From positions 1-25,066 of the IMG/VR virus record IMGVR_UViG_3300009079_000120: 25,066 nt of DNA. One strand, given 5' to 3'. This stretch comes from a virus. The notes beneath the pieces are model-generated. The model was not told the origin of the DNA and made no database searches. It was given only the letters and a program-made list of their open reading frames with translations. The position numbers and the translations under genes are program-made. Position 1 is the first letter of the stretch. Each line of letters starts with the position of its first letter. Below, piece after piece: positions 8,245-25,066 of this stretch.

Positions 8245-8255
8245 GCCCCACTCGA

Positions 8256-10880: not shown

Positions 10881-10882
10881 GG

Positions 10883-12252: not shown

Positions 12253-12254
12253 TT

Positions 12255-12527
12255 TTACAGCTCGATTATTTCAAGGAAGCCAACGGTTTCTTGAAACTTA
12301 ACCCAGCCAGAAATAGAGGGGACAGGAACCATCACGTTTTGCTTCAGCATAACTTTGGTGCCGGGGTCCTGAATCTGTTGGGCTTTCAACAATTTAACCA
12401 GATACTTGGGTTTTTCTGTCTTGGCAGATTGCGGGTCTTGTTTTGGTTTGGCTGTCTGGTCGGTTTTACTCTGAGACGGGGCCACTATGGCAGCCGCTTG
12501 GGGTGTATTATTTTTCTTGAGGGCCAT
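12255..12527 (-). CDS. Small protein after the capsid gene (FI-like position), unknown function
   Basis: The protein is 90 residues if it starts at MALKKNN, preceded by GGAGA seven bases upstream; an ATG 15 bases earlier (MPENL) lies inside that ribosome-binding region. The N-terminal half is Lys/Gln/Pro/Ala-rich and low complexity (QSKTDQTAKPKQDPQSAKTE), so probably disordered. The C-terminal half looks like a small beta domain (GTKVMLKQNVMVPVPSISGW). It resembles in position the gene between E and FII of lambda, but no sequence relation is visible. The open frame extends further upstream into the terminator, which is not a likely coding region. Confidence 0.6.
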   Translation of the reverse strand: MALKKNNTPQAAAIVAPSQSKTDQTAKPKQDPQSAKTEKPKYLVKLLKAQQIQDPGTKVMLKQNVMVPVPSISGWVKFQETVGFLEIIEL

Positions 12528-12603
12528 TAGATTCTCCGGCATTAATATGGTGTTGTTGGATGATAGCTGTTTGTATAACCCCTGTCTAGCAAGGGGCTGA
12601 TAC

Positions 12604-12632
12604 AAAAAGGCCGGCTAATAGCCGGCCTTTTT
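12604..12632 (-). terminator. Bidirectional intrinsic terminator after the capsid gene
   Basis: AAAAAGGCCGGC (12604-12615) and its exact complement (12621-12632) enclose a 5-base loop, giving a GC-rich stem flanked by A5/T5 tracts. In the minus direction this is a classic terminator, 22 bp past the capsid stop codon. Downstream genes are also structural, so it should be partial or be passed by antitermination. Confidence 0.85.
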
Positions 12633-12653
12633 ACCTTAGTGGTGCTTTGGTTA

Positions 12654-13844
12654 TTACGTGTTGATCAGATCCATGACAGAGAACGCGTCGTCGTAAAGAC
12701 GAGTAGTAGTCTGGCCAAAGTCAACCCGCAGGGCACGAGCACGGCGTAACAGAAACTCTTCAACTGCCGCGTAAGAAGCAGAGACGTTAATGTAACGACG
12801 TAAAGCGAACTCGTTATCCAGACCCACAATGCGGTTTTCAGGGACCACAGAAGCTGGAACCAGAAACACGCGAGGAGGAGTAATACCCAGATTATCGATA
12901 GAGAACAAGGAATCGATACGAGGGCTGTTAGGGTTGTCTTCAGTGATAACAGGGCGACCGGTACGTCCTTCAATTGCCAGTGCGGTATCGATAGTACATA
13001 CCAGATTGGTCAGGGTGATGGTCTGGTAGTTGTCACGCAGATAGTGGATCCAAGCCTTCTGGGTCAGAACCCCGTCGGCGGTAATACTGTTGTCCAGTGT
13101 GTCTGCATTAAAAGAAACCAGAGCCGACAGGCCGATGTCAGGGTTACCGTTGAAGCAATCCGCCAGTGAGTTGTTCACCATGCGCAGCTTTTCACCTTTA
13201 GCCTGACGAGCCATGACCGTGTTCACCAGATCGAACGAAGTAGTCGCAACCGCCTGATCTGAGATCATGATACCGATACCTTTGGAAGGGATTGGCGTGG
13301 TGCTGTCAGCGGCAGTGATGCTAACCATTGACGCTGGCTCAGCCAACTGAGCGACAGACTGTGCTTCTGAACCTTCAGGGGCAGTCAAATCGATCTTGGC
13401 CCGCTTGAATTCAGGAGCGTTAACCGTTTCAGTGCCGGACAACAGGTTTTCATACCCAGCAAAGTAGTCGCCTTTATCCGCCTCCAGATTAGCCGCGATA
13501 GTCTGCAGGATAACCTCTGGGAAGAAGATACGGCCAGCCGGGGTAGTGTTTCCATTACCGTCAGGGGATACAATAGCTCCAGCGGCGATCTTAACGCCGT
13601 TCAAGACATCCTTCATTGAAGAAGACTTGATGCCAAGCTTTTGGTTGCCCTTAACATGCAGTCCATTCGAGGTCAGTGCCTGAGACAGCACGGAGCCGTA
13701 CTTGGCTTCGTCGGTCGGGAACTTACGAGACATGAACTGCGTCAGAGATAGGCCTTCGTCAGCGGCTGCAGCATAGTCAGTGACTGCTACGGAACCTTCG
13801 TGTAGTACGCCCGCATCATCACGGAATTTAAAGTTTGTTTTCAT
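12654..13844 (-). CDS. Major capsid protein
   Basis: This 396-residue protein follows the decoration protein gene by 14 bp and occupies the place of lambda gpE. It should form the hexamers and pentamers of the icosahedral shell with the HK97 fold. Recognisable stretches are GRIFFPEVILQTIAANLEAD, a likely spine region with EGRTGRPVITEDNPN and a C-terminal RRYINVSASYAAVEEFLLRR. Codon use appears more biased than in the neighbours, as expected for an abundant protein. It starts MKTNFKFRDDAG, with GGAG upstream. A strong terminator follows. Most other possible functions are excluded by position and size. Confidence 0.9.
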   Translation of the reverse strand: MKTNFKFRDDAGVLHEGSVAVTDYAAAADEGLSLTQFMSRKFPTDEAKYGSVLSQALTSNGLHVKGNQKLGIKSSSMKDVLNGVKIAAGAIVSPDGNGNTTPAGRIFFPEVILQTIAANLEADKGDYFAGYENLLSGTETVNAPEFKRAKIDLTAPEGSEAQSVAQLAEPASMVSITAADSTTPIPSKGIGIMISDQAVATTSFDLVNTVMARQAKGEKLRMVNNSLADCFNGNPDIGLSALVSFNADTLDNSITADGVLTQKAWIHYLRDNYQTITLTNLVCTIDTALAIEGRTGRPVITEDNPNSPRIDSLFSIDNLGITPPRVFLVPASVVPENRIVGLDNEFALRRYINVSASYAAVEEFLLRRARALRVDFGQTTTRLYDDAFSVMDLINT

Positions 13845-13858
13845 TTCATTCGCTCCAA

Positions 13859-14329
13859 TTAGATGCGTTCGATAAGGACAGTGTCACCGACGGTGCCTGT
13901 GCCAGTGACAATACGGATGCAGCGCCACTTAAACTCAGTGGGCGCGGCAAAACCAGTTCCTGCTGACAGCACAGTGACTTTACCGGCGGTTGCTGGAGCT
14001 ACCGGGATGCCGCTGCACACCAGAGCACCTACGGCCATCACCGGAGTTTGATTGGCAGCCACCGTAGCCATAGCGCGGCCTTTGGTCTGTACGCCGCCCC
14101 AGCTAAACCCGCTATTGCGGACGCCCGGTTCGACCGAGGTCACAATACCTTCGATTTCATCACCAACGGCCACGGCCACGTAAGAATCTGCTGCCATTTT
14201 TACGCCTTTGCCGATTTCGACATCAGTGTAAGTACCTACGCCAGCAGCGGCGGTGCCCAAAGCATCTGTAACAATTCCCATTACGGAAGTATCGACTAGC
14301 AGTGAGCGGACAAGAGTTGTAGAACCCAT
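13859..14329 (-). CDS. Head decoration / cement protein (lambda D position)
   Basis: This 156-residue protein lies between the protease/scaffold gene and the capsid gene, exactly as lambda D does. It is rich in Gly, Ala, Val and Thr, has few charges and looks all-beta: DVEIGKGVKMAADSYVAVAV, FSWGGVQTKGRAMATVAANQ and a C-terminal CIRIVTGTGTVGDTVLIERI. It would sit on the outside of the shell and stabilise it. The start at 14329 is supported by AGGTG seven bases upstream. It is larger than lambda D (110 aa). Function is inferred from order and composition. Confidence 0.75.
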   Translation of the reverse strand: MGSTTLVRSLLVDTSVMGIVTDALGTAAAGVGTYTDVEIGKGVKMAADSYVAVAVGDEIEGIVTSVEPGVRNSGFSWGGVQTKGRAMATVAANQTPVMAVGALVCSGIPVAPATAGKVTVLSAGTGFAAPTEFKWRCIRIVTGTGTVGDTVLIERI

Positions 14330-14354
14330 TTAATTCACCTGTATAAGTTAAAGT

Positions 14355-15005
14355 TTAAAGTTTGTTTGTCGCAATGGAAGCGCGTTCCATGAACGACAGG
14401 CCGTCACCGCTAGATGCTGGCAATTCCCCGTCCTCAACCTCAGCCGACGCTCCGATTTGGAATCGAGTCGTAAACTTTGATCTAACTTCGGTGTACTGAG
14501 CTAACAGTGTCGAAGTTTCCATGCCTGAGAGATTCATGGAAGACATGCCTAAACCGATGGCCATTCCCCCAATGTACTCACTGGCTAATTTTTTCAGAGC
14601 GCCCTCGTTCGTGTCCGCCAGCTGGAACTTGGCGCGAAGAGAGGTAAGCTCAGAGTCCATAGCTTTATTCTCTGCCCGCAGGGTGGCCAACTCGCCTTTA
14701 AGGTGAGCTATCAGACTGGTTGACTCGGAAGCGTCAGCTTTAGGGGCCGGAGCGCCGCCTTCAGCCTTAGGGTCTTCGCCTTCAGCCTTAGGGTCTTCGC
14801 CTTCGCCTTCAGCCTTAGGGTCTTCGCCTTCAGCCTTAGGGTCTTCGCCTTCAGCCTTAGGGTCTTCGCCTTCAGCCTTAGGGTCTTCGCCTTCAGCCTT
14901 AGGGTCTGCAGCGTCTCCTTCAGCCAGAAGGTCTTCAACAGCCCCTGTCGGAGCCCCAGAGGCCAGAGCGGCTACAGACGCGGCTGTAAGTACCTTCTTT
15001 TTCAT
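14355..15005 (-). CDS. Nested scaffold protein (Nu3-like internal start)
   Basis: An in-frame ATG at 15005 (residue 283 of the protease ORF) is preceded on the minus strand by TGAGGATATTGAC, giving an AGGA Shine-Dalgarno at good spacing. It would yield a separate 216-residue scaffold: MKKKVLTAASVAAL, the acidic heptad repeats, then a coiled coil. Lambda makes its Nu3 scaffold from the same kind of internal start inside gene C, and many copies are needed per prohead. The start site and frame are seen in the sequence. That it is used is an inference. The N-terminal MKKKVLTAASVAALASGA also looks like a signal peptide, but that makes little sense for a scaffold and is probably chance. Confidence 0.6.
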   Translation of the reverse strand: MKKKVLTAASVAALASGAPTGAVEDLLAEGDAADPKAEGEDPKAEGEDPKAEGEDPKAEGEDPKAEGEGEDPKAEGEDPKAEGGAPAPKADASESTSLIAHLKGELATLRAENKAMDSELTSLRAKFQLADTNEGALKKLASEYIGGMAIGLGMSSMNLSGMETSTLLAQYTEVRSKFTTRFQIGASAEVEDGELPASSGDGLSFMERASIATNKL

Positions 15006-15851
15006 GTCAATATCCTCAGATAAAACGGTTCTGCCAGCAGAACCTTGATTGGGCTGGTTAATCAGCCGGTTAAAAAGCGTGTCAAATGATATCACTTCAT
15101 CCATCAAACCGTTAGCGACGGATTCTTTCGCAAAGAAAGTAAGTCCTTCGCCAACTTGAGACTTCACTGAAGCCCGTGGGATGTTTCTATTTTCAGAAAC
15201 AGCGTCTAGGAAGAAACCTTCCATCACATCGATCTTTGCCTGAAATATCTTCTTGGCAGTATCGGTTAACTTTTCGTAGGGGTTGCCGAGGGCTTTGAAC
15301 TTACCGCCTCGCAAAACAGTGACCTGATAGCCTTTGTCTTTCAAGGCATCAGCCTGATTCATCAGGATGGCCACCACTCCGATGGATCCAGCTTCTGACA
15401 TCTTAGGGCCGTAGATTTTGTCGGTGGCCGAGGCGATCCAGTACCCGGCACTGAATGCCGCACCAGAGACGTACGTGTCTATGGGTTTGTGCTGTTTGGC
15501 CTGCAAAATGAAATCTGACAGTTCATTGACCCCTTTAGCGTCTCCGCCCGGGGTGTCCATGTCGAGCAGGATGCGGTCTACTTCATCGTCGTTAATGGCT
15601 TCTATGATCGCATTGCGAATCTCGTTATACGAGGTAATGCCAAACAACCGGTTCCAGAATGAATCGCTATTGGTCAGCGGGCCGTGAACAGCTACTGTCC
15701 CTACTCCCTCAGCAGTAGACAGCAGGTGGGAGCTTTCGTCATAGCCGATGTCGTCGGGGTCAGTCCGACCACGAAATTGGACTTGAGCGTCTACGACATG
15801 CCGTAAGCTGGATTCGTCACCAAGCCAAATTAAAGAGTTTTCTAATTTCAT
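14355..15851 (-). CDS. Head maturation protease (S49 family) fused to scaffold
   Basis: This 498-residue protein has two parts. Residues ~45-280 are an S49 (SppA/SohB/lambda C-like) protease: DMDTPGGDAKG at ~97-107 forms the oxyanion region, Ser134 in AAFSAGYWIAS is the likely nucleophile, GSIGVV lies at 155-160, and Lys184/Lys186 in LRGGKFKALGNP are candidates for the catalytic lysine. Residues ~283-498 are a scaffold part with a repeated acidic PKAEGED linker, a coiled coil (HLKGELATLRAENKAMDSEL) and a helical end. In lambda the C protease likewise carries the Nu3 scaffold in its C-terminus. The protein acts inside the prohead, cutting scaffold and itself before packaging. No strong Shine-Dalgarno is seen before 15851. 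Confidence 0.9.
   Translation of the reverse strand: MKLENSLIWLGDESSLRHVVDAQVQFRGRTDPDDIGYDESSHLLSTAEGVGTVAVHGPLTNSDSFWNRLFGITSYNEIRNAIIEAINDDEVDRILLDMDTPGGDAKGVNELSDFILQAKQHKPIDTYVSGAAFSAGYWIASATDKIYGPKMSEAGSIGVVAILMNQADALKDKGYQVTVLRGGKFKALGNPYEKLTDTAKKIFQAKIDVMEGFFLDAVSENRNIPRASVKSQVGEGLTFFAKESVANGLMDEVISFDTLFNRLINQPNQGSAGRTVLSEDIDMKKKVLTAASVAALASGAPTGAVEDLLAEGDAADPKAEGEDPKAEGEDPKAEGEDPKAEGEDPKAEGEGEDPKAEGEDPKAEGGAPAPKADASESTSLIAHLKGELATLRAENKAMDSELTSLRAKFQLADTNEGALKKLASEYIGGMAIGLGMSSMNLSGMETSTLLAQYTEVRSKFTTRFQIGASAEVEDGELPASSGDGLSFMERASIATNKL
14758..14907 (-). repeat. 21-bp tandem repeat encoding PKAEGED
   Basis: Seven copies of ttcagccttagggtc start at 14760, 14781, 14808, 14829, 14850, 14871 and 14892. 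The period is 21 bp except for one 27-bp step that inserts an extra Gly-Glu. The reading frame is kept throughout. It encodes an acidic, proline-containing linker between protease and scaffold coil. Confidence 0.95.
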
Positions 15852-15909
15852 AATCGGAAAGTACCAATAAATAGGGGGTTATGCAACTCGCAATACGAGG
15901 GGGAGAATG

Positions 15910-17367
15910 TCATTGGGACTTTCCACCGCCTTTTCTGGGGGCGTCTTGCGGGGGCTGCAGGTTGTCCTCTGCGGCTCCCCGGGTGGTGCTAGAGCCTTCG
16001 GTTTTTGGCTCAGCCTTGGCCGGTGAGTAGAACCCAGTGCCTGAAAGTGTAGGGGCCGCCCGGTTATACGGAATCTCCAACTCATACGCCGCCTGCCCAT
16101 CAGTGATCAGCCCTAAGCTTAACCGTTGCAGAATTCGAGCCTCTTTCATAGTCTTGAAGGCTTCCAGTTCTGACTCAGGGCGCAGATCGATAGCGTTAAA
16201 CGTAAACTTAACGTAAACGTCACTACCATACAGTCGACAGGCTGTGGTCAGTGCCCGGGACATGACCGACTCCACTGTGCTCTGCAGGGCTTTGGCTGTT
16301 TTCAAAAATATCAGGGTTTCCGTGTTGCTCAGGCTCTGGGAACCGGCGGCTCTCATACCCAGAACAGAGGGAGGGGTTTTCAAGCTGGTCGCTTCCATGT
16401 TTCCTAAAGCGGTCATCATCGGAGTGTAGTCAGCCTTTGTGCCACCGACATCTTGAGTATCAAATGTAACTGAGTCATAGGCCACTACGGCGTCTTCAGG
16501 AGAGATGTCCTTGAGGGCTTCTTCGACATCAGTTTTTACCTGAGACATGAATGCCTGCAGCTTTTTATCGTCCGCCCTAATTTCCTTAGGGGCTGACGCT
16601 CTGACCATCTCTGCATTTAGCGTGGTGACCAGACGGCTGTGACCTGTCTTGAACAGGACCCGGCGCATGTCAGCTATGAAGTCAGCCGAGGTAAACACCG
16701 AGTCTAACGCTGAGCGAAAGATGGAAACTGAATATGCCGTGTCCATCTCTTGGTGCAGGGACTCGGCATAGAAGGTAGGAATATCCAGCTTAATCGGGTC
16801 CCCGAACCCTACCTGCTGGGGGTACTTTGACCCTTTTCCGTCACTGACCCATTCCAAAGTGGAATAATCCACGGCTTGGAATCTTTCAGGATAGCGGGCT
16901 TTATCTAGTTCCAGCTCCATGGCACAGCCGCCGGTAATGGCGGTCTCTCGGAGAAGGGTCTGGACCAGCATGGATATGGGGCGTTTGCGGCCAAACCCTT
17001 TGGTATAGTCGTACAGGGTGTCCATAGAGGCCACAACATTGTTGGCCAGTATCGTGCCCTCAGTAGAAAACTCTGTACTGCCGGGGACGTAAGCTGCCAC
17101 CCGAAAGCCCGAGTCTGCAATCTGAACCATATGAAACAAGGAAGTAGAGACGTTGCCATTCTCTTTCCCTAAGATCCGGATGGCCTGTACGGTCTGCCCT
17201 TGAGTCCTAAGGACTCTGGGGTCACGGGTTACCCAAGTCTTATTAGAATCTATAATGGCCTGCCCGTTTTCCGACTTGGCCTCTACAGTTTTAGACTTCA
17301 GTACAGAGGTAACTGACCGCGGCAGAACTATCGGTTTAGCGGTCTTGTTGCTGGACTGAGTGGGCAT
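15910..17367 (-). CDS. Portal protein
   Basis: This 485-residue protein lies between the large terminase and the protease/scaffold genes, the place of lambda gpB. It should form the dodecameric ring at one capsid vertex through which DNA enters and leaves, and nucleate prohead assembly. Stretches typical of portals are the N-terminal RDPRVLRTQGQTVQAIRILG, the central PTFYAESLHQEMDTAYSVSI, a long helix region ~260-300 and GNMEATSLKTPPSVLGMRA with the following SLSNTETLIFLKTAKALQS (stem and wing-like helices). The last ~50 residues are Pro/Gly/Ser-rich and probably disordered. The ATG at 17367 has no clear Shine-Dalgarno, and the gap to the terminase stop is 70 bp. No lambda W-like gene separates terminase and portal. 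Confidence 0.9.
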   Translation of the reverse strand: MPTQSSNKTAKPIVLPRSVTSVLKSKTVEAKSENGQAIIDSNKTWVTRDPRVLRTQGQTVQAIRILGKENGNVSTSLFHMVQIADSGFRVAAYVPGSTEFSTEGTILANNVVASMDTLYDYTKGFGRKRPISMLVQTLLRETAITGGCAMELELDKARYPERFQAVDYSTLEWVSDGKGSKYPQQVGFGDPIKLDIPTFYAESLHQEMDTAYSVSIFRSALDSVFTSADFIADMRRVLFKTGHSRLVTTLNAEMVRASAPKEIRADDKKLQAFMSQVKTDVEEALKDISPEDAVVAYDSVTFDTQDVGGTKADYTPMMTALGNMEATSLKTPPSVLGMRAAGSQSLSNTETLIFLKTAKALQSTVESVMSRALTTACRLYGSDVYVKFTFNAIDLRPESELEAFKTMKEARILQRLSLGLITDGQAAYELEIPYNRAAPTLSGTGFYSPAKAEPKTEGSSTTRGAAEDNLQPPQDAPRKGGGKSQ

Positions 17368-17401
17368 ATTGAAAGCGTCACGGGGGTTGGAGAGATAGGG
17401 A

Positions 17402-17430
17402 ATGATTCAGCATATCCGCCGGGATGTCAA
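17402..17430 (-). promoter_or_regulatory. Possible sigma-70-like promoter upstream of the portal gene
   Basis: TTGACA (17430-17425) is followed after 17 bp by AATCAT (17407-17402), in the short gap between the large terminase and the portal gene. The -35 is perfect but the -10 matches only 4 of 6 consensus bases. It would boost the head genes relative to terminase, but it could be chance. Confidence 0.3.
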
Positions 17431-17437
17431 GCCGGGG

Positions 17438-19171
17438 CTACGATTTGGAGTTTGATCCTATACGGACAGCGGTGATCTGAGGCAGCGCTCCCACCGGTTG
17501 GCTCATGTAATCCTCCTTGTCTACCGCCATATCTGCGATAAACGCATAGTTGGTAGAGTGTGCGTAGTGGTCTGGCTGGCCGGGCTTCGGGTAGGAAACA
17601 ATGTCCCCCATCTCGCTTTTCCTGACTACCTTTTTAGTCACTTCCACGTGAGATTTAAGCGTGTCGGTCGTAGGGTGGTCCGGATAGTGAACCTTGGCTT
17701 TATTGTGTGCTTCCATGTAAGTAGACAGAGTACCTGACCGGTCGGCCTTAACAACTGCGTCTTCCTCTTTCAGCTCGATGTAAGAGTAGGCCTCTGGCAC
17801 AGAGCGATAGTATTCGCACCCGTATACCGTCCCGTACTGGTTATCATGTATCAACGTTTGTGACGTAGTGAAGTCAGGCCCTGCATCGAGCACGGTCATG
17901 GCCGGCTTAAAGGCGTCGATGTACTTTTGCACCTGCATCGCTATGGTGTTGCCCGGGCTTGACACCAGCTCGGCCAAATGGAGTATCCAGTAACCCTTGC
18001 CGCGTTTCTGCAGCACGGTAATGTGGCTGGTCTTGCCTATGTCCACCCCAATCCTTACGTTATTAAGGGTCAGGGTAGCCGCCCTCTCCAGCGTGATGAA
18101 ATGGGACTTTTCCGTGTTCTCAAAGATCGACATCAAGAACGAATTATTGGCGTCCTCGTGCGGTAGCCCGACAACAAAATTACGGTGATCCTGTTTCGTG
18201 TAGTCTGACAATTGCTTAAAGATAGAGGGGACCTTGTTGTAGTGAGGAACGTCTATCGGGCTGACCTGATACCCAGACAGATCTACCACGCTGGGGCACT
18301 CTGCCACCCATTGGCGGCACGTCGGGTCCATTAACGAGGACCATAAATCCTTCCCACAGTGCTGACATTTAACGAAAGCATCATCGACTTTGTACCGGCT
18401 GTTAAGCAGGTCTTCCGCCGCGAATAAGGCAATTTCCCCGTCATACCCCGGGATCACGTAGTCATGGTAGTACGAAGGTATCTGCCACGTATTACATTTC
18501 TTGCAGCGGACGTGGTAGGTCTTTTTGTCTGAGGCTTCGTAATGCTTGCTCACCCCATACTTGGGTATGGTGGGGGTAGAGAACCTGCGGCGCCTGCCGC
18601 GCAACCCAGTAGCCAGATCCTCTGGTGCATGCCTCAGGCGGGAGTTAAATTTACCAAGGACGTCAGGATCACAGAAGTTTTCCTCGTCCACGATCAGATC
18701 GGTTGCCGGTATAGAAATAGCCTGAGAGTCGGTAGACGCGCCAACAAAATAAACCGTAGAGTTCCCTATCTTGCGCATGGCAGCAGACTTTACGTTGGTG
18801 TGCAGCATAGAAAACAGCAGAGGGGAGTCTTTCAGTATGGGATAGAACCGGTCAGCTGACACCTTTTCAGAGAAGCGGGCGGACGGCAGAACGTAGATAA
18901 TTCTGGACCGGGTAACAGCGGCGATAGCCGCCACCAATCGCAAGGCCAGCTCCGTCAGACCCACCTGAGAGCATTTGGTAACCACGGTGTGTGGGTGTTG
19001 ATCAGACGCTATCTGTTCCTGCATCTCGTGGTGCTTAAAATTATAGGGCCGACCGTCCAACCTCAAGTTGTTGGTCATCCAGCGGGACAGGTGGGCCATC
19101 GCCGTCGAGCGATCAGCCGCCACCTGAATGCGGGAAATGAACCCCTTAATCAGGTTGGAGTTAGCCGACAC
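17438..19171 (-). CDS. terL: Terminase large subunit (GpA family)
   Basis: This 577-residue protein is the packaging motor and nuclease. It has an N-terminal ATPase with a Walker A-like KCSQVGLTE at 66-74 and a Walker B DLIVDEENF at 158-166 (acidic pair D162/E163). A four-cysteine zinc-type site lies at C223/C226 and C269/C272. A C-terminal RNase H-like nuclease has D377 in IGVDIGKTSHITVL, D429 in VLDAGPDF and D534 in GQPDHYAHS as the likely metal ligands. The layout agrees with lambda gpA rather than with T4-type terminases, so cohesive-end packaging is plausible. The start at 19171 overlaps the HTH protein gene by 11 bp. All catalytic residues that I can place are present, so it should be active. 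Confidence 0.95.
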   Translation of the reverse strand: MSANSNLIKGFISRIQVAADRSTAMAHLSRWMTNNLRLDGRPYNFKHHEMQEQIASDQHPHTVVTKCSQVGLTELALRLVAAIAAVTRSRIIYVLPSARFSEKVSADRFYPILKDSPLLFSMLHTNVKSAAMRKIGNSTVYFVGASTDSQAISIPATDLIVDEENFCDPDVLGKFNSRLRHAPEDLATGLRGRRRRFSTPTIPKYGVSKHYEASDKKTYHVRCKKCNTWQIPSYYHDYVIPGYDGEIALFAAEDLLNSRYKVDDAFVKCQHCGKDLWSSLMDPTCRQWVAECPSVVDLSGYQVSPIDVPHYNKVPSIFKQLSDYTKQDHRNFVVGLPHEDANNSFLMSIFENTEKSHFITLERAATLTLNNVRIGVDIGKTSHITVLQKRGKGYWILHLAELVSSPGNTIAMQVQKYIDAFKPAMTVLDAGPDFTTSQTLIHDNQYGTVYGCEYYRSVPEAYSYIELKEEDAVVKADRSGTLSTYMEAHNKAKVHYPDHPTTDTLKSHVEVTKKVVRKSEMGDIVSYPKPGQPDHYAHSTNYAFIADMAVDKEDYMSQPVGALPQITAVRIGSNSKS

Positions 19172-19364
19172 TGGCAGACTTTTCCTTTTGCGCTAACACC
19201 TTGGCTGACTTCCCTTGAAAGTCCTCAAAGGTGAGCGCTATGGTCAGTTCCTCAGGGGACGTGGCTTTAGAGACCCTCGCTGCCATAGCCTGTCTGGACA
19301 CCCCGGCCAAAGCTGCCCACTGAGTCAGGCTGAGTTTTTTGTTGCCTACGGTGTAGAGTTTCAA
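19161..19364 (-). CDS. Small helix-turn-helix protein next to terminase (possible small subunit part)
   Basis: The preferred start is TTG at 19364, overlapping the TGA of the upstream gene by four bases and preceded by GAGGGAGA at good spacing; this gives 67 residues. An ATG at 19415 would add 17 residues with a 55-bp overlap, also with a possible ribosome site (GGAAG). The N-terminal half has a helix-turn-helix pattern, LSLTQWAALAGVSRQAMAAR, as seen in DNA-binding proteins including lambda Nu1. The rest is short and charged (FEDFQGKSAKVLAQKEKSA). Between the putative small terminase gene and the large subunit it may recognise the packaging site or regulate the operon. Its function is not proven. 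Confidence 0.65.
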   Translation of the reverse strand: MKLYTVGNKKLSLTQWAALAGVSRQAMAARVSKATSPEELTIALTFEDFQGKSAKVLAQKEKSASVG

Positions 19365-19780
19365 ATCAGGTCTCCCTCTAAATAGTCTACTAAAGCGGTT
19401 ACGAACTCCGGGCATGGGCAGTCTTCCATAGCCATCTCAATAGCCATCTCCAGCCTTCGCACCTCGGCGTCGGTCTTCAGTGAGGACTCGAACGCCTGCA
19501 GCATGCCGAGGAGCTTCATGGATGAGTTCATGTACGAGGTTATTTCTGAGGCTTCAGTCTCTGTTTTTGGCCTACCATTGGCGTGGAATAGGTGGGATCG
19601 GATGGCCTTAAGAAGCCGGGTCTGCGCGTATATCTCAGCCCTAAGATCGAACTCTATCTCAGAGTCGGTTGTGGCTGGTGAGAATATATCGATGGCCGAT
19701 TCTTTCTCTTCAGCCGCCTCTGCCCTGAGTCTATCTCCTTCCTGTTCTTGCTCTATGTATTGCTCGAAGTCTTTGGACAT
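19361..19780 (-). CDS. Putative terminase small subunit
   Basis: This 139-residue, acidic, mostly helical protein is the first gene after the junction promoter and stands two genes before the large terminase. Residues ~45-125 (LRAEIYAQTRLLKAIRSHLF, SYMNSSMKLLGMLQAFESSL) look like the oligomerisation helices of small terminase subunits. No helix-turn-helix is evident, so DNA recognition may lie in the HTH protein encoded next. The ATG at 19780 lacks a clear Shine-Dalgarno and lies ~33 bp downstream of the -10 of the second promoter. The assignment is from place, size and helicity. Confidence 0.5.
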   Translation of the reverse strand: MSKDFEQYIEQEQEGDRLRAEAAEEKESAIDIFSPATTDSEIEFDLRAEIYAQTRLLKAIRSHLFHANGRPKTETEASEITSYMNSSMKLLGMLQAFESSLKTDAEVRRLEMAIEMAMEDCPCPEFVTALVDYLEGDLI

Positions 19781-19812: not shown

Positions 19813-19842
19813 AGTGTAGGGGGTAGGGCTACAGTTTGTCAA
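19813..19842 (-). promoter_or_regulatory. Promoter for the terminase / structural operon
   Basis: TTGACA (19842-19837) with an 18-bp spacer to TACACT (19818-19813) forms a good sigma-70 promoter on the minus strand. It lies just past an intrinsic terminator and upstream of the first packaging gene. Transcription would start near 19806, giving a ~26-nt leader. Confidence 0.65.
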
Positions 19843-19862: not shown

Positions 19863-19892
19863 AAAAAACTCCAGAGGTTTTTACACCTCTGG
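19863..19892 (-). terminator. Intrinsic terminator upstream of the terminase operon
   Basis: On the minus strand CCAGAGGT (19892-19885), a 6-base loop and ACCTCTGG (19878-19871) form an 8-bp stem followed by AG and six T's (19868-19863). It would end transcripts arriving from the small-gene region and from the promoter at 19973. The arm overlaps an alternative hairpin (CTGGAGT/ACTCCAG, 19850-19874). Confidence 0.8.
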
Positions 19893-19937
19893 GAACAAGC
19901 TAAGGAGGAGTTATGTCACAGCATGAGCCAAAACACA
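19863..19937 (-). ncRNA. Possible short RNA of ~75 nt with an anti-Shine-Dalgarno-like segment
   Basis: The promoter at 19973-19944 and the terminator at 19892-19863 would define a transcript of about 75 nt. It contains no ORF with a ribosome site. At 19910-19901 it reads CUCCUCCUUA, which includes the CCUCCUUA of the 16S rRNA 3' tail. It could be a free RNA or an attenuated leader of the terminase operon. This is an inference from elements that are visible. Confidence 0.35.
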
Positions 19938-19943: not shown

Positions 19944-19973
19944 AGTATGCAAGTTTTTTGTATGGGTTGTCAA
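19944..19973 (-). promoter_or_regulatory. Promoter upstream of the terminator
   Basis: TTGACA (19973-19968), 18-bp spacer, CATACT (19949-19944) on the minus strand. The -35 overlaps the stop codon of the preceding gene. Spacer and -35 equal those of the second promoter 131 bp downstream. It fires into the short region that ends at the terminator. Confidence 0.6.
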
Positions 19974-20152
19974 TTAGTTTTGGTACCGGTCGACCGGTAC
20001 TTAGGTTTTATGGTTACCTGACTGCCGGCCACTTCTGCCAACCTCTGTAAGGCCAACTGCATTCCCTCAGGGGTGTAGCTGTCGGCATCTCTCACCAACA
20101 TACCAAGCTTCTCTTTGAAGTATCTGGAATCCAGACCGTATGGGTTACTCAT
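19970..20152 (-). CDS. Small phage protein, unknown function
   Basis: The protein is 60 residues from the ATG at 20152 (MSNPYGLDSRYFKEKLG), whose start overlaps the TAA of the upstream gene. A GTG 12 bases earlier is possible but would lie inside the AAAGAG ribosome site. It is mostly helical, with a YTPEGMQLALQRLAEVAGS stretch of a kind found in small accessory phage proteins. Its C-terminal codons contain an 18-bp palindrome, so the sequence KYRSTGTKTN may be shaped by DNA-level constraints. It is the last gene of the small-gene train before the junction. Its function is unknown. Confidence 0.65.
   Translation of the reverse strand: MSNPYGLDSRYFKEKLGMLVRDADSYTPEGMQLALQRLAEVAGSQVTIKPKYRSTGTKTN
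19983..20000. promoter_or_regulatory. Perfect 18-bp palindrome upstream of a promoter
   Basis: GTACCGGTCGACCGGTAC equals its own reverse complement. It lies 9 bp upstream of the -35 at 19973, inside the last codons of the preceding gene. Place and symmetry suit a binding site for a dimeric activator; a cos or packaging nick site is an alternative. Confidence 0.45.
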
Positions 20153-20478
20153 TAAAATGGACACTCTTTATTGGTTACTTTCTGGCTGCCTATTATCCCC
20201 AGATCTTGGTTAAACTCAGCAACCTCCACGTCGTATAAGTCAGCATGGATGCAGGTTCTGTTCTCTGACTCCACCCGTCCTTTAACGTGTGGCCAGTCAT
20301 TGCCCCGGCAGAAGCACCCCCTCCTTTGCCCTCTCAGGACTTCTTTGGCATTCACCGACTTAATATCTCCCCCACACTCCGGGCACATAGGCCTATTGCG
20401 GTAGAAGTGCCTAGGCTGCTTCAGGGTGACCCGCTTACCGCAGGCTCTTCTGTCGGTGCAGCGGTAGTTAATGCCCAC
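20152..20478 (-). CDS. Cys-rich putative zinc-binding phage protein
   Basis: This 108-residue protein starts with GTG at 20478, GGGAG ~9 bases upstream, overlapping the previous gene by 11 bp. Cysteines are arranged as YRCTDRRACGK, MCPECGGD, GCFCRGNDWPHVKG and RTCIHAD. This agrees with a small zinc-ribbon or treble-clef-like protein of a type common in phages of enterobacteria (CxxC pairs followed by a WPHxKG-like stretch). It may bind nucleic acid or protein; no catalytic residues are visible. The next gene overlaps its stop codon. Confidence 0.7.
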   Translation of the reverse strand: MGINYRCTDRRACGKRVTLKQPRHFYRNRPMCPECGGDIKSVNAKEVLRGQRRGCFCRGNDWPHVKGRVESENRTCIHADLYDVEVAEFNQDLGIIGSQKVTNKECPF

Positions 20479-20662
20479 TGATAGAAAACTCCCGAATCCG
20501 GTTGCGCATGTTTTGTCCCAAATCTCGGAGTTGTTTCTCAGTCTTCAGGTTGTGGCCCATCTTCCACAGCTCGTCCAGAAACTCTTCATATTTTCGTTTA
20601 GTGCACTTACATTCGTCGGTGGTTTCCGCCGTGCACCTTTCGTATATGCAGGTTGTGTTCAT
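20468..20662 (-). CDS. Small Cys-containing phage protein, unknown function
   Basis: This 64-residue protein begins MNTTCIYERCTAETTDECKC, giving four cysteines in the first 20 residues, then a charged helical part (KRKYEEFLDELWKMGHNLKT). The cysteines could bind a metal. Its ATG overlaps the upstream stop (ATGA) and is preceded by GAGGTGAGGC. I recognise no family. Confidence 0.65.
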   Translation of the reverse strand: MNTTCIYERCTAETTDECKCTKRKYEEFLDELWKMGHNLKTEKQLRDLGQNMRNRIREFSISGH

Positions 20663-20880
20663 GCCTCACCTCGCTCAACCGTAATCCGGTACTCTAAAGT
20701 GCCGTCAGGTCTGCTGATCTCAACAGGCTTTCCGAAGTGCAGCGCATGCTCTGCCACGGCGACCAGAGCCTCGATCGTCTTATCCTGCTTTCCAGACGCC
20801 CACGTCCTGCCATCTTTGAGGACTGCGCCGCAGAATATGGTGCCAGTGAGGGGGCTGGCGGCTATGTGTAGGTTTTTCAT
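20659..20880 (-). CDS. Conserved small phage protein (DUF7446-like)
   Basis: This 73-residue protein begins MKNLHIAASPLTGTIFCGAV, continues LKDGRTWASGKQDKTIEALV and ends YRITVERGEA. I recognise this as a conserved, uncharacterised protein of tailed phages of enterobacteria (I believe DUF7446, not checked). It has no catalytic motif or membrane segment and is a small alpha/beta protein. GGAGTAGAACG precedes the ATG, and the same 15-base start region occurs before the neighbouring gene at 21286. Function is unknown. Confidence 0.8.
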   Translation of the reverse strand: MKNLHIAASPLTGTIFCGAVLKDGRTWASGKQDKTIEALVAVAEHALHFGKPVEISRPDGTLEYRITVERGEA

Positions 20881-20884
20881 CGTT

Positions 20885-21286
20885 CTACTCCATCCAGTTC
20901 AGGCAGTCTTTGGTCTCGCACTGGCCATGCACGTGGCCGTTATACGAGGACACTGAAAAATGCAGGTTGTTGCCACAAACAGGGCAGGGGCGGGTTCCGC
21001 TGCCCCCCTCTTTGGAAAACTCTTGTTTCAGGGCTGCGATAAGCGGCAGGCAAGTCTCCATCCGTTGTATGACAGCTTCCCACTCTGCCTCATCTGCTGC
21101 CACCTCTTCAGGGGTTGGCTCACAGTATGAAGGGCAGACTACTCCGCTACGATTGTCAGCTACGCAAGGGATTCTCTTTAGCCAGCCGAACTGCTCTCCC
21201 CCGGTGATTTGACGGGGGCTAATTCCCGCCTTGCACAAGGGCTCCAGCATGCTGACACGGTGTTTACATTGGCCTTCTCTAGTCAT
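20885..21286 (-). CDS. Cys-rich phage protein with C-terminal zinc ribbon
   Basis: The protein is 133 residues from ATG 21286 (MTREGQCKHRVSMLEPLCKA), chosen because GGAG lies seven bases upstream; a longer version from 21325 would overlap the neighbour by 35 bp. The N-terminal part has scattered cysteines (GQCKHR, EPLCKAG, RIPCVAD, VVCPSYCEPTPEE). The C-terminus is RPCPVCGNNLHF then GHVHGQCETKDCLNWME, a CxxC ... CxxxxC zinc ribbon known from many small phage proteins. It may bind zinc and act as an adapter or nucleic-acid binding protein; its role is unknown. It is coupled to the next gene by a 4-base gap. Confidence 0.75.
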   Translation of the reverse strand: MTREGQCKHRVSMLEPLCKAGISPRQITGGEQFGWLKRIPCVADNRSGVVCPSYCEPTPEEVAADEAEWEAVIQRMETCLPLIAALKQEFSKEGGSGTRPCPVCGNNLHFSVSSYNGHVHGQCETKDCLNWME

Positions 21287-21290
21287 CGTT

Positions 21291-21473
21291 CTACTCCGGG
21301 TCGTTTTCGTCACACTCCCACTCAAGGGAGAATATTTCTTTGGTTACGACATCCTGCCAAGCCACGTTACGATGGTCCCCGCAGATATCGGCTTTGGTTG
21401 AGACGATATCGTGGTTCTTCAGCATGCGCTCGTACGCCCATTGATCGAATTGTTCTTTGTTGACTAAGTGCAT
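21291..21473 (-). CDS. Small phage protein, unknown function
   Basis: The protein is 60 residues from ATG 21473 (MHLVNKEQFDQWAYERMLKN), preceded by GAGGAGGA at 9-base spacing. The longer frame to 21572 overlaps a well-supported gene and is rejected. It has a helical N-terminus and an acidic end (LEWECDENDPE), with no known motif. It starts one base after the stop of the upstream gene and ends five bases before the next start, so it is part of the same transcript. Confidence 0.6.
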   Translation of the reverse strand: MHLVNKEQFDQWAYERMLKNHDIVSTKADICGDHRNVAWQDVVTKEIFSLEWECDENDPE

Positions 21474-21474
21474 T

Positions 21475-21915
21475 TTACCGATCCTCCTCAAATGTTCTGC
21501 CTTCCAAAGGCTCTCTGGATTTGGCAATCGCTGAGATCTGGTGGAACGCATCGTTCCAGACCACCTGCGCACGGCGCTCTGTATCCAGACAGGTTTGCAG
21601 TGCCGTCACTTTGTCGGACAGTTCCTGTATGCGGTCAGCCGCCGTCAGGCGGGCGTATACTTCATCTTCCATGCAGGTCGAGACCTCGGTTCTCAGCTTA
21701 TCGCACAGCTGGTCATCCGTCATGGACTCCTCCCTCGGCAAGTTAGGTTGGGCGGTCTTCAAGTCGTCCTCTTCAAACCAGATGGACCAGTTTCTAGCCA
21801 CTCTCACCTTATACTTTCGTAAAGGTTTGTCGTAGATAAGGACCACCCCTTCCCGCCTTTGGGCCAACGAGTTAGGCGCTGTTATCGTCACTCTCTCTCC
21901 TACCAAAAACTTCAT
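21475..21915 (-). CDS. Phage protein with KOW-like N-terminus and coiled-coil C-terminus
   Basis: This 146-residue protein has two parts. Residues ~1-45 (MKFLVGERVTITAPNSLAQR ... GVVLIYDKPLRKYKVRV) look like a small SH3/KOW-type barrel. The last ~80 residues (TAADRIQELSDKVTALQTCL) form a predicted coiled coil. The coiled-coil part resembles the short helical proteins found in the small-gene regions of many phages. The start at 21915 is supported by AGGAGA seven bases upstream. It lies downstream of a structured spacer. No function can be assigned. Confidence 0.65.
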   Translation of the reverse strand: MKFLVGERVTITAPNSLAQRREGVVLIYDKPLRKYKVRVARNWSIWFEEDDLKTAQPNLPREESMTDDQLCDKLRTEVSTCMEDEVYARLTAADRIQELSDKVTALQTCLDTERRAQVVWNDAFHQISAIAKSREPLEGRTFEEDR

Positions 21916-22086
21916 TCTTATTCTCCTGCTATTCAGTATTTAGGATGCCAATACCGGGCCGAGGGCTACACCCCCCGGCCCGGAACGGGACTTTGCCGGA
22001 TATCTGGCCCGGTTCCATGCTTCCCCGCCCACCAAGTAGCTGAGTGCTACTAGACTCAGGGGCGGTGAATTCCTCGCATCTGTAAT
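21916..22086 (-). other. GC-rich structured spacer between ThyA-like gene and its downstream neighbour
   Basis: This is the longest spacer in the small-gene region. It contains CCGGGCCG/CGGCCCGG (21954-21961 with 21976-21983) and a second structure CCGCCC/GGGCGG (22025-22030 with 22060-22065) enclosing TGAGT/ACTCA (22041-22045 with 22054-22058). Neither stem is followed by a U-tract, so neither is a normal terminator. A structured RNA controlling the next gene, or an mRNA processing site, is possible. Confidence 0.5.
21929..22018 (-). CDS. Possible 29-residue micro-ORF in the spacer after thymidylate synthase
   Basis: An ATG at 22018 preceded by GGGGAAGC opens a 29-codon frame that begins MEPGQISGKVPFRAGG and ends with TAG 13 bases before the next gene's ATG. 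The position is that of a coupled leader ORF. Composition is driven by the GC-rich hairpins within it, so the frame may be chance. Confidence 0.25.
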   Translation of the reverse strand: MEPGQISGKVPFRAGGCSPRPGIGILNTE

Positions 22087-22923
22087 CTAAACTGAGAATT
22101 CAAAGGCTATCGCTGGGTGGTGCTGATAATTAATGACTTGAAAGTCGTCCACCGTCACCCACGTATCCATGTCTTCCAATGTTTCAATTTTAGGGTTAAT
22201 GATTAACGATGGAGGATCGAAAGGTTTACGGGACAACTGCTGTCTCAGAGGTAGCATCTGATTCTCGTAGATATGGGCATTTACTATTTTATGGTAAGCG
22301 ATTCCCGGCTTAAGGCCAGTAATTTTCGCCATAACCATAAGCAACCAGCAGACCTGAATCATATTAAATCCAAGCCCCAGAGGGACATCAGCACTGCGCT
22401 GATAGGATGTAAGGTACAGAGTTCCATCCAGCACACTAAATATGTGCTGGTATAAACAAGGCCTTAAACAACCTTGGTTAAGCTCCCCCGGGTTCCAGTA
22501 GGTGATAATTTCACCACGATCATCGAGCCCCTTACGAAGGTCTTCATAAACCTTCTTGAGCTGATCCACGTTGTGACCCCAGTTTCTGCCTTGAACCCCA
22601 TACACTCGGCCCATATCCCCCGGACGGCGGCAGAATCTGCTACTTTTCCATATCGGAGCATTGGCATTAGCGTCCCAAGTGTCAGTGCCCAGTGCTTGAA
22701 ATTCTGCTACGTTATCGTAACCTCTCCAGTAGCCCAGCATCTCAGCGACGGCTTTACGCCAATAGGCTTTTTTGGTTGTCAGCAGGGCAATTTGCCCCTC
22801 ACGACAATCGTATTCTAGATTCGCATCGATAACGGTAAGACAACGAGCACCGGTACGTTCGTTTTTAACCCATTTACCGGTATCGATAATGCGATTAACT
22901 AAATCAATATATTGTTGAGACAT
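22087..22923 (-). CDS. thyA: Thymidylate synthase family protein (dTMP synthesis, or dUMP hydroxymethylase-like)
   Basis: This 278-residue ThyA-type enzyme converts dUMP with methylene-tetrahydrofolate to dTMP in the classical case. Compared with E. coli ThyA I place Arg23 (R21), Glu61 (E58), Trp83 (W80), Tyr108 (Y94), nucleophile Cys156 (C146), Gln175/Arg176/Ser177 (Q165-S167), Asp179, Asn187 (N177), His217 and Tyr219 (H207/Y209). Asn187 argues for a dUMP substrate rather than dCMP. The residue after Arg136 is Gly instead of the second phosphate-binding arginine, and the His after the nucleophile is Leu. There is an insert of ~10 residues before DMGRVYG. It supplies the phage with thymidylate or a modified pyrimidine. 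AAGGGGG precedes the ATG. Base composition looks more AT-rich than in the neighbours, consistent with separate acquisition. Confidence 0.9.
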   Translation of the reverse strand: MSQQYIDLVNRIIDTGKWVKNERTGARCLTVIDANLEYDCREGQIALLTTKKAYWRKAVAEMLGYWRGYDNVAEFQALGTDTWDANANAPIWKSSRFCRRPGDMGRVYGVQGRNWGHNVDQLKKVYEDLRKGLDDRGEIITYWNPGELNQGCLRPCLYQHIFSVLDGTLYLTSYQRSADVPLGLGFNMIQVCWLLMVMAKITGLKPGIAYHKIVNAHIYENQMLPLRQQLSRKPFDPPSLIINPKIETLEDMDTWVTVDDFQVINYQHHPAIAFEFSV

Positions 22924-22925
22924 TT

Positions 22926-23165
22926 TTAATCCCCCTTAGGTACTATCTTAATCTTTCCACAGTCGCACTGCAGCACAGTAGAGGTTGTCCACTCCCACCT
23001 GAACCCAGTCACCTGTGTGGCCTGTTTCCTGAACCCAGTCGCCTGTGTGGCCTGTTTCCTGCCCCCCGTTTCACGGTAATCATGCCACCCTATGAGGCAT
23101 CCCCAAGTTTTTGCACGAGGTTTTAAAGCGATAACCACGATTGCCAACAAATCGCCGAGGCTCAT
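22926..23165 (-). CDS. Small protein with split Cys motif and duplicated decapeptide
   Basis: This 79-residue protein starts with a hydrophobic helix (MSLGDLLAIVVIALK), then GCLIGWHDYRET, a perfectly placed 30-bp tandem duplication (RKQATQATGF, RKQATQVTGF) and finally TTSTVLQCDCGKIKIVPKGD. The C...GWH ... CDCGK pattern is like small prophage zinc proteins (DUF1660-like), with the repeat inserted between the two halves. The hydrophobic N-terminus could be a membrane anchor. The ATG overlaps the upstream stop (ATGA). Its function is unknown. Confidence 0.6.
   Translation of the reverse strand: MSLGDLLAIVVIALKPRAKTWGCLIGWHDYRETGGRKQATQATGFRKQATQVTGFRWEWTTSTVLQCDCGKIKIVPKGD
22998..23061 (-). repeat. 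30-bp tandem duplication inside a small gene
   Basis: Units at 22998-23027 and 23028-23057 differ in one base (A/G at 23011/23041), followed by four further bases of a third unit. The reading frame is kept, adding ten residues. Confidence 0.9.
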
Positions 23166-23440
23166 GCCACATACTCCTCGGCTTTTTCGGCACGAATTTG
23201 TGCCTCGAAAAAATTCAGGGCTTTATTTTTAAAAATGTTCAGGCAGGCCTCCCGAGCCGGAGGGCGCAATTGTGCGTACTGAAATTTTCTCCGGAACCCA
23301 GCCCGCTTGAAACGGCAAACAGGCACCGTTATAAGAACGGTCAGCTCACACTGCCCGTCTGGGAGGACGTTTACCGAGGCCTCGCATGAGTAACCTATAA
23401 AATCTTCGATTTCTTTCAGTGTTTTCGTATCTATAATCAT
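23162..23440 (-). CDS. Small phage protein, unknown function
   Basis: This 92-residue protein starts MIIDTKTLKEIEDFIGYSCE, with a beta-rich middle (CELTVLITVPVCRFKRAGF) and a basic-helical end that finishes in an acidic LNFFEAQIRAEKAEEYVA. The start at 23440 has GAGGT ten bases upstream; the stop overlaps the next ATG (ATGA). No motif is recognised. Confidence 0.65.
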   Translation of the reverse strand: MIIDTKTLKEIEDFIGYSCEASVNVLPDGQCELTVLITVPVCRFKRAGFRRKFQYAQLRPPAREACLNIFKNKALNFFEAQIRAEKAEEYVA

Positions 23441-23443
23441 TGG

Positions 23444-23683
23444 CTATAGTACCTCTTTGCATAGGTGGTCGATCAGGTTTATAAGCTCCGTATAGGTCTG
23501 GCTAACGGACCCTGCATTCTTTACCAGCTGCAGGGTTTCCTCCAGCTTTTCGATGCGGGAGGCGGCCTCTAGCGAGATCGGGGGTATGAAGTCTGCAAAG
23601 GATCGGGTGCCGTAGGCGCCGTCAGGACCGACCTGATACTGCCCGCGCAAGCGGTTTACCAACGTAGAATTATCAGGCCTCAT
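23444..23683 (-). CDS. Small phage protein, unknown function
   Basis: This 79-residue protein contains STLVNRLRGQYQVGPDGAYG, a RIEKLEETLQLVKNA helix and a C-terminal helix ending LCKEVL. The PIS-LEAASRIEKLE stretch is common in short phage accessory proteins of enterobacterial phages. It starts with an ATGA overlap with the upstream gene. No function is known. Confidence 0.65.
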   Translation of the reverse strand: MRPDNSTLVNRLRGQYQVGPDGAYGTRSFADFIPPISLEAASRIEKLEETLQLVKNAGSVSQTYTELINLIDHLCKEVL

Positions 23684-24201
23684 TTGGGGGCCTCCTTCTT
23701 TGCATGTTTATTCTCCAACTGCAGGTATTCAACGTTGGTTATCTCAACGCAGCCGTTCACCTTGTCGCAGGACTCTGGCATCATAAACACCATAGAATTG
23801 TGCCTTGGTTTATAGGTATAGCCCGGGCTGGTCGGAAAGTAAGTTAGGCGGTTAAACCCGAACAGCTCTTCCAGCTCCTTACCGTCTACCGCCACCTCTT
23901 TGGACATCAGGTTATACGCTTTATACAGCGGCGAAGATTTTTTGACCTTAGGACGAGTAATCCCCTCTTTGGGTATCGTCCACTCGTCCCTGTCCTCCCG
24001 CTTACTGTGGTCTGATCTGGAGGATTTAAACCCGGCTAGGGTCTGTCCGTACAGCCCTCTCAGGTAAAATACCGCTTGGGTAAGACCGTGGGCAGAGGCA
24101 AAGGCGTCTGCAACCTTCTGCGCAGCCTGTCTCTCATCTACTAGGTCTGCCATAGCGGCTAGCATGGCTGGGTCGGTTACTTTGAAGTACCGGGTAGTCA
24201 T
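23680..24201 (-). CDS. Phage protein of unknown function
   Basis: This 173-residue protein starts MTTRYFKVTDPAMLAAMADL, overlapping the upstream stop by four bases. The N-terminal half is helical (DERQAAQKVADAFASAHGLT, FYLRGLYGQTLAGF), followed by a charged segment (SSRSDHSKREDRDEWTIPKE) and a mixed end with FGFNRLTYFPTSPGYTYKP. No catalytic motif or membrane segment is seen. It is the largest gene of unknown function in the small-gene train. Being coupled on both sides, it is clearly expressed as part of one operon. Confidence 0.65.
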   Translation of the reverse strand: MTTRYFKVTDPAMLAAMADLVDERQAAQKVADAFASAHGLTQAVFYLRGLYGQTLAGFKSSRSDHSKREDRDEWTIPKEGITRPKVKKSSPLYKAYNLMSKEVAVDGKELEELFGFNRLTYFPTSPGYTYKPRHNSMVFMMPESCDKVNGCVEITNVEYLQLENKHAKKEAPK

Positions 24202-24491
24202 GACTTTTTAACCTGCAAAATAACCTTTCCCATCTCTCTGTGTATGCGGACATAGCTTAGGCTGTCCGCCCCGGAAAACTCTCTCAATACCTCCCACGCA
24301 GCCGCCGACTCTGTTGAGTGTTTATGCGCCAGTTTTTTGAACCTGCGGTAGGATATTTCACCGGTAATATAGTGTTTAGATAAGTCGGCCAGTATCATAT
24401 CGTTATACATAACCACCTTTTGCTGAGTGTACGCTTTAGTTCCTTTAGGGATTACGCACAGGTCTTCATAAACTTCATTTGTTCCAGTCAT
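24198..24491 (-). CDS. Small phage protein of unknown function
   Basis: This 97-residue protein begins MTGTNEVYEDLCVIPKGTKA, then a stretch of helices (MILADLSKHYITGEISYRRF, TESAAAWEVLREFSG), and ends REMGKVILQVKKS. Its ATG overlaps the upstream TGA and its stop overlaps the next ATG, both by four bases. No family is recognised. Confidence 0.65.
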   Translation of the reverse strand: MTGTNEVYEDLCVIPKGTKAYTQQKVVMYNDMILADLSKHYITGEISYRRFKKLAHKHSTESAAAWEVLREFSGADSLSYVRIHREMGKVILQVKKS

Positions 24492-24754
24492 TCTGGTTTC
24501 CTCTTTACGTTATTGTGATCGTTGTCAGGGTGCAGCGTTTTTGGCCACAGCCGGTTATGCGGTTCCAGTTGTTGAACGATGGTCAATACCTCTTTGACCC
24601 CTATTAAATCCTTCTCATACTCCTCACAGTGGGCAGTGAAGTGGTCAACCACTGTCTTTAGCTGGTTATCGTATGCGGTCACGTACTGACGCTCGGTGAT
24701 CACCTTAGGGTCATCATCTTTGGTGTATTCACACAGCACTTCAAATACTTTCAT
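24488..24754 (-). CDS. Small phage protein of unknown function
   Basis: This 88-residue protein begins MKVFEVLCEYTKDDDPKVIT, with AGGAGAT seven bases upstream of its ATG; the ribosome site overlaps the stop of the previous gene. It has a strand-helix layout (EVLCEYT, VTAYDNQLKTVVDHFTAHCE) and an ending rich in His, Asn and Lys. No family is recognised. Confidence 0.65.
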   Translation of the reverse strand: MKVFEVLCEYTKDDDPKVITERQYVTAYDNQLKTVVDHFTAHCEEYEKDLIGVKEVLTIVQQLEPHNRLWPKTLHPDNDHNNVKRKPE

Positions 24755-24758
24755 TGGT

Positions 24759-24947
24759 TCATCTCCTATCGATAGGCGGCAGGGTTTTGGGATTTGACGC
24801 CCGAATAACGGCTATCTGGGCGTTGGCTGCTGCCACCCCTGCGGCATCCCCTCTATTGGCCGCGGCAATAGCTGCCAATCGGAGGCGTTCAAGGGCTTCG
24901 TCGCGTCGTTCGTTACTATCGACAACTAGCTGGCGTTTTACGGTCAT
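24759..24947 (-). CDS. Small Ala/Arg-rich helical phage protein
   Basis: The protein is 62 residues from ATG 24947, which overlaps the TGA of the upstream gene (ATGA) and has GGAGA six bases before it. A longer frame from 24977 would overlap the neighbour and lacks a ribosome site. It is almost all helical (ERRDEALERLRLAAIAAANR, AAGVAAANAQIAVIRA), with repeated AAxA and charged positions. It may form a coiled coil or bind a partner; function unknown. Confidence 0.6.
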   Translation of the reverse strand: MTVKRQLVVDSNERRDEALERLRLAAIAAANRGDAAGVAAANAQIAVIRASNPKTLPPIDRR

Positions 24948-25066
24948 GCTGTGTCTCCGTAAAGCTCTGACCGGCACAAGATCATACCAGCGTAGTTAAT
25001 GACATCGACCATGTCCCCTTTTTCTACGTGCTCTTTAAGAGCTTCTAACAATATCTCGTTAGTGCA
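24944..25066 (-). CDS. C-terminal part of a small phage protein, N-terminus outside window
   Basis: An open frame enters from the right edge and ends with TGA at 24944-24946, giving 40 residues in the window (TNEILLEALKEHVEKGDMVD and on to SELYGDTA). The KGDMVDVINYAGMILCR stretch resembles the end of small phage proteins, often annotated as nucleotide-related or hypothetical, that finish with a DVxNYAxM motif. Coupling to the next gene by ATGA and the presence of GGAGA support real translation. The start and full length cannot be seen. Confidence 0.65.
   Translation of the reverse strand, partial: CTNEILLEALKEHVEKGDMVDVINYAGMILCRSELYGDTA

Follow-up and report, generated by a model that had tools for sequence, protein, structure and literature searches.

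Does the short stretch in front of the late operon of this phage give rise to an RNA of its own, and what would such an RNA do? The window, that is, the whole 25,066-base virus record analyzed here, carries a co-directional gene set on the minus strand, and an earlier note on it had proposed that a promoter and an intrinsic terminator bracket about 75 nt without an open reading frame (ORF). This bracket was confirmed on the minus strand, as was its position just upstream of the late operon, and the sequence elements of the promoter–motif–terminator unit (Table 1) are real. The reading that we favor, with a probability of about 0.5, is that of a short phage RNA of ~75 nt that would act in trans, extend from the first promoter (P1) to the terminator, and pair with Shine-Dalgarno (SD) sequences through an unpaired anti-SD (aSD) octamer, UCCUCCUU.

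Table 1. Features of the window at the boundary between the upstream and the late genes
Feature	Positions	Strand	Remarks
Terminase large subunit	17438–19171	-	phrog_675 6.5e-100; PF05876
First late gene, 139 aa, terminase-small-subunit-like by position, without Shine-Dalgarno sequence	19361–19780	-	
P2, second promoter, TTGACA-18-TACACT, -35 box TTGACAAA, late operon	19813–19842	-	
Intrinsic terminator	19865–19892	-	Stem 19892–19871 (8 pairs, 5 GC), then AGTTTTTT, U6 tract
Putative short non-coding RNA, ~75 nt	19863–19937	-	No ORF inside, as read from the sequence
UCCUCCUU, conserved anti-Shine-Dalgarno octamer, predicted unpaired	19902–19909	-	Inside CUCCUCCUUA (19910–19901)
Predicted 5' hairpin of the RNA	19912–19937	-	
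P1, first promoter, TTGACA-18-CATACT	19944–19973	-	10/12 consensus positions; arrangement recurs in L005 and L200
60-aa gene, stop codon overlaps P1	19970–20152	-	Homologue in L031

Upstream of the late genes, the window carries small genes and a thymidylate synthase gene, all on the minus strand, while the late side begins with the 139-aa gene, followed by an 84-aa gene, the terminase large subunit, and a 485-aa protein. Since PHROG and Pfam searches with the 139-aa protein gave no match, its name as a terminase small subunit follows from gene order, and the 485-aa protein is taken as the portal because its relatives match published-phage proteins annotated "portal protein". Lana, PMBT3, UAntarctica, and SHOU24, Pseudomonas and Vibrio phages of ~80 kb, are its nearest published neighbors, with terminase identities of 33–37%. 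No phage record was matched by blastn with the region, and a prophage scan of genome contigs found none. A perfect 18-bp palindrome, GTACCGGTCGACCGGTAC, lies just 5' of P1 (19983–20000), within the terminal (3') part of the 60-aa gene, and is absent from the corresponding place in the relative L005.

At the sequence level, the putative transcript has the attributes of an independent sRNA gene, with its own promoter, an intrinsic terminator, and no ORF wholly within its ~75 nt. ARAGORN detected no tRNA or tmRNA in the window, and Rfam returned no family there at the gathering threshold; membership of the RNA in an Rfam family was rejected, the matches being sub-threshold only. A leader peptide inside the RNA was also rejected, as there is no ORF in the window RNA and none is conserved in the other RNAs described below.

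The motif itself, CCTCCTTA, is located at 19908–19901 on the minus strand and extends to CTCCTCCTTA from 19910. It could simply be an octamer that arose by chance in ordinary intergenic DNA equipped with promoters and a terminator, and the window does not speak against this: composition predicts 1.24 copies of CCTCCTTA in the window, where one is found, and TCCTCCTT arises in 1.0% of dinucleotide shuffles of the window leader. The motif alone is therefore not beyond chance, and the comparison with relatives decides. The search for relatives started from the terminase, the portal, and the 139-aa protein, and promoters were reported from a threshold of 9/12 consensus positions.

At seven loci, grouped once the motif was already known, every octamer was counted over the 300 nt that precede the first late gene, and the counts were compared with dinucleotide shuffles (2000 trials). 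The most widely shared octamer was TTGACAAA, found at five of the seven loci, followed by TCCTCCTT and TTTTGACA at four each; apart from pieces of the second promoter, no other octamer was as widely shared as TCCTCCTT. The shuffles contained TCCTCCTT at a mean of 0.09 loci, and none of the 2000 reached four. With the window left out, three occurrences were observed versus 0.07 expected. Any octamer at all was present at four of the seven loci in 0.4% of the shuffles (P=0.004). For 19 loci, some octamer appeared in at least four in 18% of the shuffles, so that it is the closer group, together with the relative L018, that carries the claim. In 815 kb from 64 family loci, among which a few records appear repeatedly, the late-gene strand has 12 copies of the octamer. 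Four of these are in the slot before the late operon, and only four family members carry the motif there. The octamer thus stands out from chance only when relatives are taken into account. Chance as an explanation, consistent with the figure for 19 loci and with the absence of the octamer from L015, L031, L205, and most distant relatives, is at odds with the counts at the seven closer loci, and we regard it as unlikely.

The unit is conserved in relatives, where the earlier note had suggested looking for it, within intergenic DNA that is otherwise unalignable. The order of promoter, UCCUCCUU, hairpin with U-tract, late promoter, and terminase-small-like gene is kept in L005, L200, and L018, whose intergenic DNA could not be aligned with that of the window (by alignment for L005, by eye for the others). 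In L005, which shares 62% identity with the window in the 139-aa protein and 82% in the portal, TTGACA-16-TATACT lies over the preceding stop codon and is followed by UUUUCCUCCUUUAAG, a strong hairpin with U6, TTGACA-17-TACACT, and the first late gene. L200, with a terminase 59% identical to that of L005, has a modest P1 (TTGAAA-17-TAAACT, 9/12) at the preceding stop codon, then CUCCUCCUU near the RNA 5' end, a 17-pair hairpin with UACUUUUU, TTGACA-17-TACAAT, and the first late gene. In L018 (portal identity 50%), the terminator hairpin itself carries UUCCUCCUU as its loop: GCCCCGAC-AACCA-UUCCUCCUU-UGGUU-ACCGGGGC-UUUUUU. The promoters of L018 are weak: P1 matches 8/12 positions, as read by eye and below the 9/12 threshold, and the P2-like box is TTGCAA-18-TATACT, so near the ATG that the late mRNA may be leaderless. 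At none of the loci read (window, L005, L015, L018, L031, and L200) is the first late gene preceded by a clear SD.

Loss of CCUCCUU in close relatives that keep the flanking elements had been named as evidence against the RNA, and such loss was observed in part: L015 keeps the terminator and P2 with neither P1 nor the motif, and L031 retains P2 alone, likewise without the motif; in L205, a tRNA-Pro occupies the place of the short RNA. Nothing similar was seen at the late-operon boundary of more distant relatives. The published UAntarctica, SHOU24, PS14A.1, and PMBT3 have no motif beside the late-operon terminator, the CCTCC of PS14A.1 being in a terminator stem. A first DNA-pattern scan gave no relative of the group among the matches listed.

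Lana (L034, about 3930–3975) and PMBT3 (L035, about 2885–2925), which represent two phage genera, carry strong terminator-like hairpins with the identical loop CCTAGTCCT, upstream of tRNA and terminase genes; the Lana hairpin includes TCCTCCTT, partly in the stem and farther upstream. Genes for tRNAs lie upstream of terminase genes in L205 (7301–7377), L007 (4467–4787), L035 (4133–4493), and L034 (4728–4801). With tRNA genes in or near the place of the short RNA, this may be a slot for stable RNAs, and the region upstream of terminase genes would be a place to seek stable phage RNAs.

An arrangement of promoter and early terminator just before the late operon is familiar from the PR'-tR' unit of phage lambda, which produces the lambda 6S RNA. 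By analogy, P1 could be the real late promoter and the short RNA a prematurely terminated leader, with read-through by an antiterminator and with the aSD either incidental or part of antitermination or pausing. The immediate succession of promoter and terminator upstream of the late operon in several relatives fits this idea. The region's most conserved element, however, is a good P2 that follows the terminator, and because of this location read-through is not needed. The octamer, which varies in position from +8 to +137 relative to P1 and is found before or inside the terminator, does not behave like a pause or Q site tied to a promoter. The lambda stretch after gene Q lacks CCTCC. No antiterminator family was recognized among the upstream proteins scanned, most of which have no family at all. 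A lambda-like leader has little probability.

The arrangement was also encountered outside the family. A last pattern scan yielded 47 contigs, nine of them with a terminator-like fold, and among these matches was the unrelated phage L249. There, a perfect 12/12 promoter (TTGACA-17-TATAAT) precedes UUCCUCCUU at the RNA 5' end, with UCCUCCUU from about nt 8 of the RNA; 3' of the motif come a strong terminator, a second promoter with TTGACAAA, and then terminase, portal, protease, and capsid genes, with tail sheath genes of a different type farther on. Because it was picked from 47 pattern matches, L249 is suggestive support and not proof. In another unrelated contig (L233, position 7496), TCCTCCTT comes after the end of a gene and before a strong terminator, beyond which is a promoter with TTGACAAA.

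Two further explanations do without an RNA that carries the motif as its working part. The first is a DNA site, for packaging, for terminase binding, or for another protein. Packaging sites of the lambda type can lie just upstream of terminase genes, as the motif does in five phages. The site is nevertheless a single copy in each case, it is situated within a promoter–terminator unit in a stretch predicted to be single-stranded in the RNA, and its distance to the first late gene varies from about 60 nt (L018) to 180 nt (L200), all of which makes a DNA site very unlikely. The second is a ribosome-binding site on the plus strand, an option also raised in the earlier note, where AAGGAGGAGTTATG would serve a small gene encoding MSQHEPKHRS-stop. 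This gene has only 10 codons, and the window is the only locus with a start codon at good spacing: L005 and L249 have no usable start, the ATG of L018 is 1 nt away, and the start in L200 is 13 nt away and opens four codons. A plus-strand gene is accordingly extremely improbable.

The predicted folds are in agreement with an RNA whose aSD is exposed. With RNA ends assumed from the promoter and terminator positions, the window RNA would form one hairpin plus the terminator and carry one motif. In the predicted ensembles, the mean unpaired probability of the octamer is 0.98 in the window, 0.96 in L005, 1.00 in L018, 0.99 in L200 (lower when other ends are folded), and 0.97 in L249, as compared with RNA-wide means of 0.37–0.50 for the five RNAs. 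The expectation that the aSD stretch would be left unpaired was thereby borne out by prediction. The octamer ranks as the most accessible site in the window (0/68) and among the most accessible in L018 (1/155) and L005 (6/163), which also argues against a chance occurrence. A further suggestion, that the RNA might be a leader unfolded by ribosomes, found no support, as the RNA has no conserved reading frame and the motif is already unpaired in the predicted fold. This small, conserved, structured, and presumably non-coding unit with an exposed aSD is probably a real functional RNA element.

The composition of the motif bears on its partner. The earlier note read the motif at 19910–19901 as including the tail of 16S rRNA, but the conserved core UCCUCCUU has U where 16S has A: in all five RNAs, U and not A precedes CCUCC. 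Consequently, AAGGAGGA is the best complement, and a copy of the 16S tail is disfavored. This weighs on the possibility that the RNA is a decoy of the 16S rRNA 3' end, titrating a protein or nuclease that acts on the aSD, such as a host toxin cutting the 16S tail, instead of pairing with mRNAs. The motif does resemble the tail, and toxins that remove the aSD exist. Since a tRNA lies in the slot in L205 and, in UAntarctica and PMBT3, tRNAs precede the terminase genes, the slot may hold RNAs that counter host attack. The base after CCUCCUU nonetheless varies as well (A, U, U, G, and C), so that, with U replacing A, the 16S context is not copied, and a decoy appears quite improbable. The GGAGGAA stretch of 16S rRNA was dropped as a possible pairing partner of the RNA, as neither the window nor L200 shares the extra UU.

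Pairing of the RNA with SDs in trans, argued here by analogy, stands at roughly even odds. The RNA would be made from P1, a promoter of the sigma-70 type, and ended by the intrinsic terminator, and its working part would be the UCCUCCUU predicted to be unpaired between the 5' hairpin and the terminator. This stretch would base-pair with the SDs of host mRNAs and/or SD-rich phage mRNAs and thus block 30S binding, which would favor the late mRNAs, as these would start at the separate P2 and mostly lack an SD in the window phage. Several distantly related phages keep the unit at this position, and it may therefore serve phages as a device that shuts off the translation of other messages.

The SD strengths of the window are in line with such a device. 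With gene starts assigned by a simple rule and not by a trained gene finder, the upstream/early genes (19970–24977) average -7.15 kcal/mol (n=14) versus -3.43 (n=16) for the late genes (3700–19780), random sites being at -2.5 (P=1e-4), and L005 shows the same trend. The contrast does not, however, hold across the family: it is absent in L200, where the motif is present, and occurs in a weaker form in L031, where the motif is absent. Since L200 has the candidate RNA without the contrast, we dropped the contrast as proof and keep the favoring of late messages as a hypothesis. No extended target complementarity was conserved, and no target with long complementarity stood out; the best targets in the window, the gene at 22926–23165 and thymidylate synthase (22087–22923), reach only the top 2–3% of random sites.

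Several known systems resemble parts of this proposal. The unit is similar to lambda PR'-tR' in having a promoter and an early terminator upstream of the late operon, but at the sequence level it differs by the P2 that follows the terminator and precedes the first late gene, and by the aSD of its RNA. Homology to the lambda 6S RNA was rejected, since gene order and P2 differ and the motif is absent in lambda. The endoribonuclease RegB of T4 cuts the GGAG of SDs in early mRNAs (PMC3014915); it would be a parallel in effect only, being a protein nuclease and not an RNA. It is conceivable, though doubtful, that at least two unrelated phage lineages each put a small aSD RNA at the entrance to the late operon to shut off translation in general. 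Such an RNA counterpart of RegB would silence SD-led host and early messages while SD-poor late ones continue. The c4 RNA of phages P1 and P7 is a phage antisense RNA that blocks a ribosome-binding site (PMC12197685); it pairs with one specific mRNA (ant), whereas the RNA proposed here has a generic aSD seed.

The closest likeness is to NfeR1/alpha-r14, the "cuckoo" anti-SD sRNAs of Alphaproteobacteria, which are stable, structured sRNAs that silence mRNAs by blocking translation starts with an unpaired CCUCCUCCC (PMC10746234). Both share an unpaired aSD seed with a CCUCC core, predicted here at 0.96–1.00. The bacterial sRNAs, which are encoded on chromosomes, display CCUCCUCCC on each of three hairpins, while the phage RNA would carry one UCCUCCUU per RNA. 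The Rfam family ar14 (RF02344) had no match in the window, L005, or L200 and scored 19.1 bits in L018, versus a gathering score of 58.8. By analogy, and at evenly balanced odds for the SD pairing, the phage RNA may work like the known anti-SD sRNAs, yet it falls outside their described families by the tests run. These sRNAs are known from bacterial chromosomes, and no described example of a phage anti-SD sRNA was found in the open-access literature. If real, the RNA would be a very small tool (50–170 nt) with which a phage could redirect ribosomes from one infection stage to another, and it would offer a simple model for a generic anti-SD seed that is of use and not toxic.
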